Virus record (IMG/VR): IMGVR_UViG_3300020442_000769 | Span: 1 to 53,292 of that record | Direction: 5' to 3' (one strand) | Source: a virus | DNA: 53,292 bases | Shown here: in pieces, positions 41,764-51,270 of the stretch | How positions within the stretch are numbered: the stretch's first letter is position 1 | How the letters are laid out: each line of letters opens with the position of its first letter | Notes under the pieces: generated by a model | What the model saw: only the letters and a program-made list of their open reading frames with translations | The model's database searches: none | Told to the model about the DNA's origin: nothing | Made by a program: the position numbers and the translations under genes

Positions 41764-42348
41764 ATGTCAACACTAATACCTATGGTAGTTGAGCAAACTA
41801 GTAGAGGCGAAAGAGCCTATGACATTTATTCTAGATTGTTAAAAGATAGAATTATATTTGTTACAGGTCCTATTGAAGATAACATGGCGTCTAGTATTTG
41901 TGCCCAACTATTATTTTTAGAAGCAGAAGATAAAAATAAAGATATCAATATGTATATTAACTCGCCAGGTGGTATGGTAACCGCTGGGTTGGCTATGTAT
42001 GATACAATGCAATATGTTAAACCAGATGTTAAAACAGTTTGTATTGGATTGGCCGCAAGTGCAGGTTCCTTACTATTAATGGCAGGTGCAGAAGGAAAAA
42101 GAATTAGTTTACCTAACAGTAAGATTATGATTCATCAACCTAGTGCAGGCTTTAGAGGACAAGCAACTGATATCGAGATCCATGCTAAAGAAATTTTAGA
42201 AACTAAGAAAAGACTAAATGAAATTTATGCTAAACACACAGGCAAACCATATGAAGAAATTGTTGATGCTATGGAGCGAGATAATTTTATGACACCTGAA
42301 CAAGCGGCAGAGTTTGGTCTTATAGATAGTATTGTGGAGAAAAGATAA
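41764..42348 (+). CDS. clpP: ClpP protease subunit
   Basis: This 194-aa protein is a complete ClpP with an intact catalytic triad: S99 in LAASAGS, H124 in MIHQP and D173 in ERDNFMTP. It forms a 14-subunit chamber that needs an unfoldase; no ClpX or ClpA is in this window, so it would use host ClpX or ClpA. The length and motifs match cellular ClpP, not the prohead protease gp21. It could redirect host proteolysis or substitute for a decaying host subunit. The final codon overlaps the carbamoyltransferase start (TAATG). Confidence 0.94.
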
Positions 42349-43337
42349 TGGTTGTATGGGGAATGGTAGGTAACAGTCACGATGCCAGCCTAGCAGTTTT
42401 CTTAGATGGAAAACTTGTATGGGCCAGTCTTGCTAAAGACTTTAGTGATGTACCAAACGACCCTAAACATAGTTGGACACAGATAGAAGCCGCTAGGCAA
42501 AGTTTTGGTCCACCAGATAAAGTTGTTTGGTATGAAAAGCCGATACTTAAAACTTTGAGACAGTATTGGGCAGGACAAGGTTGGTTGTTAAATGAAAACA
42601 ACATTAAAAAATATCTTGCTCAATGGGATATTGATGTGCCTGTAAAATATATTCAGCATCATGAAAGTCATGCCGCATATGGTTATTACACATCAGGAAA
42701 ACTAGATGCTTACGTAATGTGTTTAGATAGCATAGGAGAGTTTGAAACATTTACTTTATGGCACGGTAAAGGTAATAAACTTAAAAAGATTTATTCACAA
42801 AGATATCCACATAGTGTTGGATTATTTTATAGTGCTATGACAATGCGTTGCGGATTTAAACCTAATGCAGAAGAATATAAAATTAGTGAACTAGCAAAAC
42901 AAATCAGTATTACAGAAAACTTACCTTTAATTAATGATGTAATCAAAACATTTATTGATGGAGATTTAAGTGGTAAGATGCCTGGCATACATTTCAAAGT
43001 TAATTTACACAAAGGTGCAAATTGGTACAAGCCTGATCTTACAACTGAAGACGATATGATTAGACTAGCCAATGCTACTCAAAGTGTTTTTGAAATGATT
43101 GTTATGTCAAATTCAAAATGGTTAAAGAACCAAAACTACTCAGCAACCAGAGACATGATAGTCACAGGTGGTTGTGCGTTAAATAGAGATGCGATGGATA
43201 GATTGCGTACTGAATGGAAAAGTGTTTGGGTACCACCAAATCCAGGAGATCCAGGAAGTTGTGTAGGTGCTGTTTTGGCAATGAACAAGAAACATATTGA
43301 CTTTAATTCTAATATATGGTATAATAATGACAAGTAA
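42348..43337 (+). CDS. Carbamoyltransferase, NodU/TobZ type, short
   Basis: This 329-aa protein has GMVGNSHDASLAVFLDGKL, the metal-binding IQHHESHAAYGYY and the ATP-binding VTGGCALN, the signature of the YrdC-like/Kae1-like core of O-carbamoyltransferases. The usual family length is about 550 aa; the C-terminal acceptor domain is missing or reduced. Phage members of this type have been linked with modification of sugars or bases. It follows ClpP and precedes gp41. Its last 40 bases hold a sigma70 promoter. Confidence 0.85.
   Translation: MVVWGMVGNSHDASLAVFLDGKLVWASLAKDFSDVPNDPKHSWTQIEAARQSFGPPDKVVWYEKPILKTLRQYWAGQGWLLNENNIKKYLAQWDIDVPVKYIQHHESHAAYGYYTSGKLDAYVMCLDSIGEFETFTLWHGKGNKLKKIYSQRYPHSVGLFYSAMTMRCGFKPNAEEYKISELAKQISITENLPLINDVIKTFIDGDLSGKMPGIHFKVNLHKGANWYKPDLTTEDDMIRLANATQSVFEMIVMSNSKWLKNQNYSATRDMIVTGGCALNRDAMDRLRTEWKSVWVPPNPGDPGSCVGAVLAMNKKHIDFNSNIWYNNDK
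43298..43326 (+). promoter_or_regulatory. Sigma70 promoter upstream of gp41
   Basis: TTGACT (43298-43303), 17 bases, TATAAT (43321-43326), overlapping the end of the carbamoyltransferase gene. The first ATG follows the -10 directly, so the transcript should start inside the 43327 gene and mainly serve gp41. Confidence 0.7.
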
Positions 43338-46136: not shown

Positions 46137-47780
46137 ATGCAAACTGACTTAGACAACATACAAAGGCTGTTAGATAGATTTAAAAGAAAAGTACCAGAAG
46201 GCACAGAATATCAAACACGTCTGACAGAAGAATTCGAACTTATACTTAATCAGAGATTCACTGATTACTTTCTACAAATATGCGATATCATTGATCTTAC
46301 CAAAGACCTTACACACATGACTCGTGGAAGTGCTGGTAGCAGTTTAATCTGTTACCTACTAGGTATTACTGATGTTGATCCAATCAAATGGAATATACCA
46401 GTAGCACGTTTTATGAATCCGTTACGTGATGACTTACCTGACGTAGACATAGACTTTGAACATTGGCGTCAGCATGATGTAATGGAACGTATATTTAAAA
46501 AGTGGCCAGGCAAGTCTGCAAGACTTTCTAACTATGTAACTTACAAAGAAAAGAGTGCAAGACGTGAAGCGGCTAAACGTTTAGGCGTTACAGGTAACTT
46601 ACCACGTAACTTTAAATACGAAAACTTAGGCATTGATGTTAAAGAAGCAAAACGTATAGAGAAAAAACTGTTAGGCAAGAAAAGAGCAATATCAAAACAT
46701 TGTGGAGGCATCGTTATGTTTACTAGGCAATTACCTAAATCATTAATATCACAAGACAATCAAATACTATTAGACAAGTATGAGATTGAAGACTTAGAAC
46801 ACTTAAAGGTTGACATATTAGCAAACAGAGGTTTGAGTCAACTGCTAGAAATAGATTCAATTACAAAATTAGAACACTATCCAGAGACAGATGAAAAGAC
46901 AAGTGCGTTACTATCACGAGGAGATGTGCTAGGTGTAACACAAGGTGAGTCGCCAGCCATGCGAAGATTATTTAGAGCGATACAACCTAAGTCAGTATAT
47001 GACTGTGTGTTTGCAACTGCAATGATACGTCCTGTTGCAATGAGTGGTAGACAAAAAGCAAGTATGTTTCAAGACTGGTCAAAAGAAGCAGTACAGGATT
47101 CAGTAGTGTTTGAAGATGATGCTATTGATATTATATCAGATATCATTGGTGTAGATATGTACGAAGCAGATATGTATCGTAGAGCATTTGCAAAAAAGAA
47201 TGACGAAAAAATATTAGAGTTTGTTGAGAAGTTAGGTAATCACCCACGTAAACAAGAAGCCATGGCCGCACTACAAGAACTATCAGGGTTTGGATTATGT
47301 AGAGCACACGCAGTAAACTTAGGTAGACTTATATGGGCATTAGCATATCATAAAGCACATAACCCAGAAGATTTCTGGAGAGCAAACCTAAAGCATTGTG
47401 AAGGATCATACAAACGTTGGGTATATCAATGTGAAGCACATCGTAGAGGTATAGATACTAAACCAGGTTGGTGGCAAAGAGGATTTATTAAAAATTGTTT
47501 TGTTAAGCAACAGTGGTTAGAACGTGTAGAGTTTGCAGGTGTGATTGCTAACGGTCGTGTGTTTAAAGGTAAGAACGGCAAGTACGTTACATTTGTTACA
47601 CTAGGTATAAATTACGGACAGTACATAGACGTAACAATACAAAAGCCATTTGGATACAGAGATGGAGATATCATACACGGCACAGGTGTAATAAGAAGTA
47701 GCAACAACAGTGACTACATACAAAGCACTGATGCAAAACTTTTTACACTTTCTGAATGGACCAATAAACGTACCGTTTGA
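46137..47780 (+). CDS. DnaE-like DNA polymerase, PHP-less (family C)
   Basis: This 547-aa protein begins in the palm of DNA polymerase III alpha: TEEFELILNQRFTDYFLQIC, then RGSAGSSLICYLLGITDVDP and LPDVDIDF with D104 and D106; the third catalytic Asp is D226 in LKVDILANRG. It continues with TQGESPAMRRLFRAIQPKS, the SGFGLCRAHAVNLGR helix and an OB-like end (AGVIANGRVFKGKNGKYVTF). The N-terminal PHP domain is absent and the C-terminal tau-binding part is not seen. T4 phages use family B gp43, so this is an extra or alternative polymerase. An AAGGGAAA site precedes the start. Confidence 0.82.
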   Translation: MQTDLDNIQRLLDRFKRKVPEGTEYQTRLTEEFELILNQRFTDYFLQICDIIDLTKDLTHMTRGSAGSSLICYLLGITDVDPIKWNIPVARFMNPLRDDLPDVDIDFEHWRQHDVMERIFKKWPGKSARLSNYVTYKEKSARREAAKRLGVTGNLPRNFKYENLGIDVKEAKRIEKKLLGKKRAISKHCGGIVMFTRQLPKSLISQDNQILLDKYEIEDLEHLKVDILANRGLSQLLEIDSITKLEHYPETDEKTSALLSRGDVLGVTQGESPAMRRLFRAIQPKSVYDCVFATAMIRPVAMSGRQKASMFQDWSKEAVQDSVVFEDDAIDIISDIIGVDMYEADMYRRAFAKKNDEKILEFVEKLGNHPRKQEAMAALQELSGFGLCRAHAVNLGRLIWALAYHKAHNPEDFWRANLKHCEGSYKRWVYQCEAHRRGIDTKPGWWQRGFIKNCFVKQQWLERVEFAGVIANGRVFKGKNGKYVTFVTLGINYGQYIDVTIQKPFGYRDGDIIHGTGVIRSSNNSDYIQSTDAKLFTLSEWTNKRTV

Positions 47781-47807: not shown

Positions 47808-48071
47808 ATGCAGAGACGTAATACTAAAAGATTCCACATAAGCGGGTCTTCCATGCCAGACGTTGAACTGGTAGCAATTATGGATAAGGCCCTAAAGAGT
47901 CCTTCGTCCTCCGTTTACAAAGTCAAAGTTGAAAACCAAAGATGGGACCGTCAGTACAAAATACTGTGGGCCGATCACATCAATACAATCGATCATTGGA
48001 AGCCGTTTGTTTACAAATACAACAAACGTTCTGATGAGTTTGTCTTCTATAAAGAAAGGAAAAAGAAATGA
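47808..48071 (+). CDS. Basic 87-aa protein ahead of the synthetase-like gene
   Basis: This protein (MQRRNTKRFHISGSSMPDVE, then SSVYKVKVENQRWDRQYKIL) is basic with a tyrosine- and tryptophan-rich middle and could bind RNA. The stop overlaps the next start by ATGA. It is not recognised, but its position ahead of a synthetase-like gene and a tRNA suggests a partner role. Confidence 0.6.
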   Translation: MQRRNTKRFHISGSSMPDVELVAIMDKALKSPSSSVYKVKVENQRWDRQYKILWADHINTIDHWKPFVYKYNKRSDEFVFYKERKKK

Positions 48072-48883
48072 CACAACTAATCGAACCCTCAAAGTTTACT
48101 TCTACCGTTGGCCTTTTAAGGTCATTTTTTTTGGATAAAGGATTTGAAGAAGTCCATACACAAAATAGATTATCTATATTAGCGGCGTGTGAAGATCCAT
48201 TTAATGTAGCAACTTACAACTACGCAGGCCAGGTATGGCCCTTGCCCCAGACAGGCCAGATGTGGCTAGAATACGAGTTACTTACACGCCCCTCTTCGAA
48301 GGGGTTTTTTTGTGTCTCCACTTCCTATAGACAAGAGCCTAATGCAATCCCAGGTAGACATGATATAATATTTCCTATGTTTGAATTTGAAATGCCAGGT
48401 AACATAGATGATCTAAAGAAGATGGAATATGAACTATGCCAACACTTAGGTTTTAAAATGCCAACTGAAAAAACTTATGCAGAGTGGCAAAAAGAATATG
48501 GAACAGATGGTGAACTAACAGCAGAGCATGAAGGTAAAATGTTTAAGGAATATGTAACAACAATGATTACAGACTTTCCGGAGTTTACAAGTCCATTCTG
48601 GAATATGAGTAGATATGAAGATGGTGTAACAAGTAAAAAGATAGATGTTATACTAGGAGGCATGGAAACAATAGGATCAGCAGAACGTTCAACAGACGTA
48701 GAACAAATGCGTGATACATTTCACACAATAACAGATGGTGCTTACAGTAACTTGCTATACGATAAGTTTGGCAAGGATAGAGTAGAAGCAGAACTAGAAG
48801 AATTTCTAGCACATGATTTCTTTCCAAGAGTAGGTGGAGGAATAGGTATGACTAGAATGATTAGTGCATTAGACACTATCTAG
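48068..48883 (+). CDS. Minimal class II (Asn/Asp-type) aminoacyl-tRNA-synthetase core
   Basis: This 271-aa protein is a bare catalytic domain. Motif 1 is FFLDKGFEEVHTQ (20-32). Motif 2 is SYRQE (86-90) with RHDIIFPMFEFEM (97-109). The AsnRS/AspRS-type GGMETIGSAER block is at 197-207, and motif 3, GGGIGMTRMI, is at 256-265 with the ATP-binding R263. The N-terminal OB anticodon-binding domain is absent. It may charge a tRNA, or act on a free amino acid like related paralogues (AsnA, AS-AR). It lies ten bases upstream of the tRNA. Two terminator-like hairpins with T-runs lie inside the frame at 48111 and 48289, where they encode ordinary residues. Confidence 0.82.
   Translation: MTQLIEPSKFTSTVGLLRSFFLDKGFEEVHTQNRLSILAACEDPFNVATYNYAGQVWPLPQTGQMWLEYELLTRPSSKGFFCVSTSYRQEPNAIPGRHDIIFPMFEFEMPGNIDDLKKMEYELCQHLGFKMPTEKTYAEWQKEYGTDGELTAEHEGKMFKEYVTTMITDFPEFTSPFWNMSRYEDGVTSKKIDVILGGMETIGSAERSTDVEQMRDTFHTITDGAYSNLLYDKFGKDRVEAELEEFLAHDFFPRVGGGIGMTRMISALDTI
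48111..48133 (+). terminator. Terminator-like hairpin inside the synthetase frame
   Basis: GGCCTT and AAGGTC form a short stem (one G-T pair, 2-base loop) followed by A and eight T. It lies within the first 20 codons. The tiny loop lowers confidence. Confidence 0.35.
48289..48311 (+). terminator. Terminator-like hairpin with T7 inside the synthetase frame
   Basis: CCCCT and AGGGG form a 5-bp stem with a CTTCGA loop, followed by seven T. It looks like a textbook intrinsic terminator but is read through as coding sequence (TRPSSKGFF). Confidence 0.5.
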
Positions 48884-48893
48884 TTGTTTGTAA

Positions 48894-48978
48894 TCTGGGG
48901 TGGTGAAATTGGTAAACACGCACAACTGTTTATTGTGTGCAGAAATGCTTGTAGGTTCGAGTCCTACCCCCAGAGCCA
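48894..48978 (+). tRNA. tRNA with GUU (Asn) anticodon on a class II body
   Basis: An 85-base cloverleaf. Acceptor TCTGGGG pairs perfectly with CCCCAGA (48894-48900/48968-48974); D-arm GTG/CAC; anticodon stem CACAA/TTGTG with loop CTGTTTA (48926-48932), anticodon GTT at 48928-48930; a 13-base variable arm forming GCA-GAAA-TGC; T-stem GTAGG/CCTAC with TTCGAGT; G73 and an encoded CCA. The D-loop (AAATTGGTAAA) and long variable arm are like bacterial tRNA-Leu, while U1-A72, G73 and GUU are like tRNA-Asn. Base 37 is U, where a purine is usual. Charging by AsnRS, SerRS (reads arm and G73) or the adjacent synthetase core are the options. Confidence 0.88.
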
Positions 48979-51193: not shown

Positions 51194-51270
51194 AACACCC
51201 TCCTCTGTTAAAAGTTAGGTGCGTTCCTTCGCATTATGCTACTTCCGTCCCGATTGGGATGAACGTATTA

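Follow-up and report, generated by a model that had tools for sequence, protein, structure and literature searches.

A class II tRNA-Asn linked to an AsnRS-like core enzyme in marine phages, with a possible role in pyrimidine metabolism

The tRNA gene with a GUU anticodon and a class II body in the window (the whole stretch of DNA analysed, 53,292 nucleotides, IMG/VR record IMGVR_UViG_3300020442_000769) is securely identified as a conserved, structured tRNA under selection, linked to a gene for an AsnRS-like catalytic core. The pair is carried by hundreds of marine phage fragments and very probably forms a functional unit. The overall best explanation, given about an even chance, is a dedicated Asn-tRNA module that would be mainly non-decoding and tied to pyrimidine metabolism.

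Results

Structure and conservation of the tRNA

ARAGORN found one tRNA in the window, tRNA-Asn(gtt) (Table 1), which also matches the Rfam family RF00005 (52.1 bits, E 2e-8). Read directly, it has a 7-bp acceptor stem (UCUGGGG/CCCCAGA), a 3-bp D-stem (GUG/CAC), a 5-bp anticodon stem (CACAA/UUGUG) with the loop CUGUUUA, and a 5-bp T-stem. The features listed by the sequence-only reading are thus all present: the cloverleaf with its 7-bp, 5-bp and 5-bp stems and CCA, the anticodon GUU, U1-A72 and G73, and a pyrimidine instead of a purine at position 37. U33 is present but position 37 is U, not A.

Table 1. Positions of the tRNA, the partner enzyme gene and its hairpins in the window
Feature	Position	Strand	Evidence
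Class II tRNA, anticodon GUU, CCA encoded	48894..48978	+	ARAGORN, Rfam, covariation, family model
GUU anticodon, followed by U37 at 48931	48928..48930	+	ARAGORN; GUU conserved downstream of aaRS homologues, positions 33 and 37 variable
Variable region of 13 nt, 3-bp hairpin GCA-GAAA-UGC	48938..48950	+	Sequence; helix covaries, 95.7% of cells paired
Discriminator G73 and encoded CCA	48975..48978	+	Sequence; in relatives G73 111/111, CCA 95/111
AsnRS-like class IIb catalytic core, 271 aa, without anticodon-binding domain	48068..48883	+	PF00152, AF2, PDB match
Terminator-like hairpin 1 and T8, codons 15-22 of the enzyme gene	48109..48132	+	Shuffling test, covariation
Terminator-like hairpin 2 and T run, about codons 74-81 of the enzyme gene	48288..48311	+	Shuffling test, covariation

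A set of 111 distinct tRNAs was gathered with a cloverleaf parser downstream of homologues of the enzyme gene and was selected for GTT at positions 34-36. U1-A72 and G73, which were no selection criteria, are found in all 111, and most encode CCA. Position 37 holds a pyrimidine in 98/111 (93 U, 5 C) and A in the other 13; at position 33 there are 95 with U and 16 without it (10 C, 4 A, 2 G). By comparison, 34/34 other tRNAs of the same loci have U33 and a purine at 37. GUU is therefore kept while the decoding context has been relaxed.

In an alignment of 31 relatives 99.4% of the cloverleaf cells are paired, with 172 double changes, a level reached in 0/500 shuffles. A pseudo-tRNA was rejected in view of this covariation and the 111 relatives, and as Leu and Ser anticodons are absent from the relatives, the window gene is not a degenerate copy. 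The earlier view, in which a class II body bearing Asn signals was remodelled by the phage, is upheld.

The variable arm is 12-39 nt long in the parsed tRNAs and about 7-39 nt over all relatives; a sister group has an arm of about 7-9 nt and an anticodon stem of 4 bp. The longer family tRNAs are miscalled as Glu, Asp or Ile by ARAGORN. Some are about 100 nt long (L028 4676-4776, L043, L044, L063 and others) and carry in the variable arm a long hairpin in which a UGUACUGCAAUAUAUUUA segment recurs. A class II tRNA-Asn with the loop CUGUUAA (R37) is also found in the Brevundimonas jumbo phages Kikimora and Gurke (L084 1510-1593, L088 1502-1585), in which no homologue of the enzyme was detected.

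With the family covariance model, tRNA-Leu scored 61-69 bits, tRNA-Tyr 48-53 and tRNA-Ser 38-44; no class I tRNA exceeded about 49. The class II body of the sequence-only reading stands, with its 13-nt variable arm, and the Leu, Ser or Tyr type proposed there is refined to Leu-like rather than Ser-like. The tRNA shares with bacterial and phage tRNA-Leu, the best-scoring ordinary tRNA, the D-arm GGUG-AA..GGUA-ACAC and a long variable arm, but tRNA-Leu has A73 and a Leu anticodon. With bacterial tRNA-Asn (GUU) it shares the anticodon, U1-A72, G73 and CCA, whereas that tRNA is class I with a variable loop of 4-5 nt and has t6A37 where U37 is found here; the D-arm is Leu-like and some relatives have lost U33. 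In bacteria, Asn identity is set by G73 together with the anticodon, and U1-A72 is the element on which amidation of Asp-tRNA-Asn depends (PMC9976931). The 'mixed identity' suggested earlier is too strong a term, as the elements read by AsnRS, ND-AspRS and GatCAB (GUU, G73 and U1-A72) are all those of Asn (PMC9976931). That the body is Leu-like and the identity elements are those of Asn is secure.

The partner enzyme

The protein encoded from 48068, a link merely hinted at by the sequence-only reading, proved to be the key: it is an AsnRS-like core of 271 codons whose ORF ends 10 nt upstream of the tRNA. It matches PF00152 (tRNA-synt_2; D, K, N) in Pfam with 1.7e-14. A first AlphaFold2 model from a shallow alignment (pLDDT 60) was replaced by a model from 52 sequences with a pLDDT of 92.5. 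In the PDB ranking AsnRS was best (Z 27.1), followed by AspRS, archaeal asparagine synthetase A (3rex, Z 23.8 over 240 residues), EpmA and LysRS. Motifs 2 and 3 of the class IIb core are present in the alignment. The phage segment QTGQMWLE lines up with SGQLNGE in E. coli AsnRS, Glu on Glu, and this residue, Glu68 of the S/T-G-Q-x-x-x-E segment, is invariant in the 52 homologues. The side-chain pocket thus has the AsnRS-type Glu and not the AspRS-type Lys; from AsnRS structures this Glu is presumed to read the amide of Asn.

The likeness to AsnRS comprises the class IIb core, motifs 2 and 3, the Glu pocket and the best PDB match. AsnRS, however, has an N-terminal OB domain, while the ORF and the AlphaFold2 model comprise the core only, with the OB anticodon-binding domain absent, and the NCBIfam scores of the phage protein are far below the cut-offs. 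AS-AR and EpmA/GenX are, like the phage enzyme, free-standing class IIb cores without an anticodon domain, but they score below AsnRS, and AS-AR is tRNA-independent whereas the phage enzyme is tRNA-linked. Because the anticodon domain is missing, the enzyme by itself does not account for the conserved GUU.

Linkage across phages

At least 595 relatives of the enzyme are found in IMG/VR. The tRNA lies within 450 nt downstream of the enzyme gene in about 54 of the 65 non-redundant phage loci with room for it, and 1 kb away in one more; the automatic tRNA labels for this count were corrected by hand with ARAGORN and by reading. In most loci ARAGORN places the GUU tRNA directly downstream, and some phage homologues of the enzyme have no tRNA. 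In a quick tree the tRNA-linked phages form two supported clades (25 and 42 rows) with bacterial rows between them.

The pair is also present in the isolates P-SSM7, P-SSM2 and P-SSM5. In P-SSM2 and P-SSM7 the enzyme homologues are 66-67% identical and the class II tRNA-Asn follows directly downstream. These homologues correspond to T4-GC 194, which in the part of PMC3037559 that covers it is listed just as an uncharacterised 'tRNA ligase', its pairing with a tRNA unremarked there. The annotated coordinates of the tRNA-Asn in the P-SSM2 record AY939844.2 are off by about 2007 bases, and the true gene lies directly after the 'tRNA ligase'. Literature searches on the enzyme-tRNA combination, or on an AsnRS-like enzyme of pyrimidine metabolism, gave no relevant match.

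In a family of 735-kb phages (L085/L169) a structured RNA of about 85 nt, with a 7-bp closing stem and a UUGUUA/GUGUUA loop, lies upstream of the enzyme gene. It was rejected as a tRNA: ARAGORN and Rfam were negative and the UUGUUA loop changes in the next relative.

Hairpins within the enzyme gene

Terminator-like hairpins number 1.52 per gene in the 42 enzyme genes of clade A, where they lie at codons 18 and 78-79; synonymous shuffling leaves 0.13. In the bacterial enzyme genes the corresponding numbers are 0.45 and 0.08, and in clade B synonymous shuffling gave no excess of hairpins above chance. In the other genes of the window 1 hairpin was counted where 0.8 was expected, and the rate in neighbouring phage genes is 0.025 per gene. 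Both stems covary, with a score reached in 0/500 shuffles. These results demonstrate selection at the RNA level on the hairpins of the enzyme gene.

A GC-rich hairpin followed by a U-run within a translated region, as in attenuators of the pyrBI/pyrE type, is present. Terminators of this kind are suppressed by ribosomes, which makes coupled attenuation upstream of the tRNA likely. Sensing of Asn was rejected, as the window gene has zero Asn codons before hairpin 1, and an attenuator of the UTP or coupling type is therefore preferred. UTP sensing is a candidate mechanism that would fit a pyrimidine link; alternatively, the T-runs may serve transcriptional slippage.

Pyrimidine genes around the enzyme

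Bacterial homologues, 55-63% identical to the window enzyme, occur in Pasteurella atlantica, Aureispira and other Bacteroidota, Midichloriaceae, Rhodospirillaceae, many Patescibacteria and others. They (loci L096-L168) often adjoin pyrD, pyrE, pyrF, a PRTase gene, prs or argH. ATCase scored over the cut-off in 2/35 and CarB in 4/35 of the bacterial carriers, whose genomes are possibly incomplete, compared with 14/14 controls for each. PyrF was over the cut-off in 19/22 carrier genomes, so the gap does not come from incompleteness alone. PyrC was over the cut-off in 1/22, but several of the larger carriers have dihydroorotase-like proteins below it, and thus just ATCase and CarB are clearly missing. 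An AsnRS-like core together with pyrD/E/F and without recognisable ATCase or CarB could mark a new entry into the pyrimidine pathway.

A search with the family covariance model R1 found no dedicated tRNA beside the bacterial homologues; a 69-bit match in L120 was dismissed as an ordinary tRNA-Leu(UAG). The enzyme family thus appears able to work without a dedicated tRNA.

Among the phages, a PyrD-, PRTase-, PyrF- or Prs-like gene lies within a few kb of the pair in 21/233 loci of a redundant set. Two loci (L035, L061) have the order PyrD-like gene, enzyme, tRNA, PRTase-like gene. The neighbouring DHO_dh, OMPdecase and Prs were confirmed by Pfam, and the PRTase-like protein was assigned solely from its resemblance to the bacterial protein. 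A search of the window for pyr genes was negative. Near the pair the window has a carbamoyltransferase (N-terminal domain, 42348-43334) and a DNA polymerase III alpha-like protein (46137-47777). A glutamine riboswitch aptamer (RF01739, 55.5 bits) lies at 51218-51267 on the minus strand, and similar motifs were seen by eye downstream of the tRNA in L044 and L067.

Discussion

In the best explanation the tRNA would serve the AsnRS-like enzyme as its own RNA partner, and the two genes would make up a module found in marine T4-like and related phages. The phage core enzyme may charge the tRNA with Asn through the acceptor end, where U1-A72 and G73 lie; alternatively the host may do so through GUU and G73, with its AsnRS or with ND-AspRS and GatCAB. 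The charged Asn-tRNA, or an Asn-derived intermediate, would then be supplied for pyrimidine nucleotides. The two intragenic hairpins with their U-tracts would act as transcription-translation-coupled attenuators over enzyme and tRNA jointly.

With U33 and a purine at 37 (t6A; decoding of ANN) unconserved in the family and GUU retained, the main role is probably not general decoding, and a mainly non-decoding tRNA is moderately favoured from these sequence patterns. Bacterial pyr loci mostly without ATCase and CarB, together with the PyrD-, OMP-decarboxylase- and Prs-like neighbours in phages, point to a role in pyrimidine supply. This link, read from gene context, is tentative, at somewhat below an even chance; most phage loci, and the window itself, are without a neighbouring pyrimidine gene, and the bacterial relatives are without the tRNA, which speaks against it as part of the best explanation. 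The phage members that have no tRNA, the GUU that a core without anticodon domain leaves unaccounted for, and the weaker dihydroorotase-like proteins of the larger bacterial carriers also weigh against that explanation. Taken together, the loop and the surroundings suggest that the main job of the tRNA may lie in pyrimidine metabolism and not in ordinary protein synthesis. tRNAs that serve outside the ribosome do exist, such as a tRNA-Gly of S. aureus for the cell wall and tRNA-Glu for haem. The phage tRNA resembles these in its relaxed decoding features and in its proposed use outside the ribosome, but the amino acid and the pathway would be different. A more specific version is unlikely: Asn, which holds N1, N3 and C4-C6 of the ring, would be activated and converted towards (dihydro)orotate independently of carbamoyl phosphate, in phages on the non-decoding tRNA and under UTP-sensitive attenuators.

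The strongest rival, though clearly less probable than the module itself, is an orthogonal translation pair, in which the core enzyme would charge its own tRNA with Asn for the decoding of AAC/AAU in late genes and so by-pass the AspRS/GatCAB route of the host. The AsnRS-like pocket and fold, GUU, the Asn identity set, the adjacency of the genes and the other tRNA genes in many of these phages all agree with such a pair. U33 and the purine at 37 are, however, unconserved, the architecture of the variable arm and stems drifts from class II to nearly class I, tRNA-less bacterial homologues lie in pyrimidine loci, and attenuators in the enzyme gene suit metabolic control better. The two genes could also be independent and travel together, an asparagine-synthetase-like or pyrimidine enzyme next to an odd decoding tRNA charged by the AsnRS or ND-AspRS of the host. 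The fold recurs in archaeal asparagine synthetase A, another free-standing core, the bacterial homologues have no tRNA and the Brevundimonas phages have the tRNA with no enzyme detected, but linkage retained in two separate phage clades with differing gene contexts, and an anticodon loop unlike that of a decoding tRNA, make independence improbable.

A decoy is far less credible still. As a non-decoding RNA with a QUU/GUU loop it would absorb anticodon nucleases of the host or of competitors, or a modification enzyme, and GUU is indeed the sole strictly kept part of the loop; a decoy would leave unexplained why U1-A72, G73 and CCA are constant and why an AsnRS-like enzyme is linked. Charging by SerRS through the variable arm and G73, with putative insertion of Ser at Asn codons as the sequence-only reading proposed, has a next to negligible chance. 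The class II body and G73 speak for it, but the body is nearest to tRNA-Leu, the linked enzyme is AsnRS-like, and a SerRS determinant is not conserved in an arm whose length in relatives lies anywhere between about 7 and 39 nt. Nor was any sign seen of an exchange of Ser and Asn at conserved Asn positions: residue 179, an Asn codon in the window gene, is Asn in 37/37 aligned bacterial homologues. Codon reassignment was rejected, as Asn codons retain their meaning at conserved sites.

If the dedicated Asn-tRNA module is correct, it is a natural synthetase/tRNA pair found across marine phages, in which tRNA identity has been kept and decoding features dropped, as in tRNA-dependent metabolism. 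The compact AsnRS core and its tRNA may offer a tool for orthogonal translation, and the proposal is directly testable in a cultured host-phage system, Prochlorococcus NATL1A with P-SSM7. It would also point to an unrecognised pyrimidine route in Patescibacteria, Bacteroidota, intracellular Alphaproteobacteria and phages.
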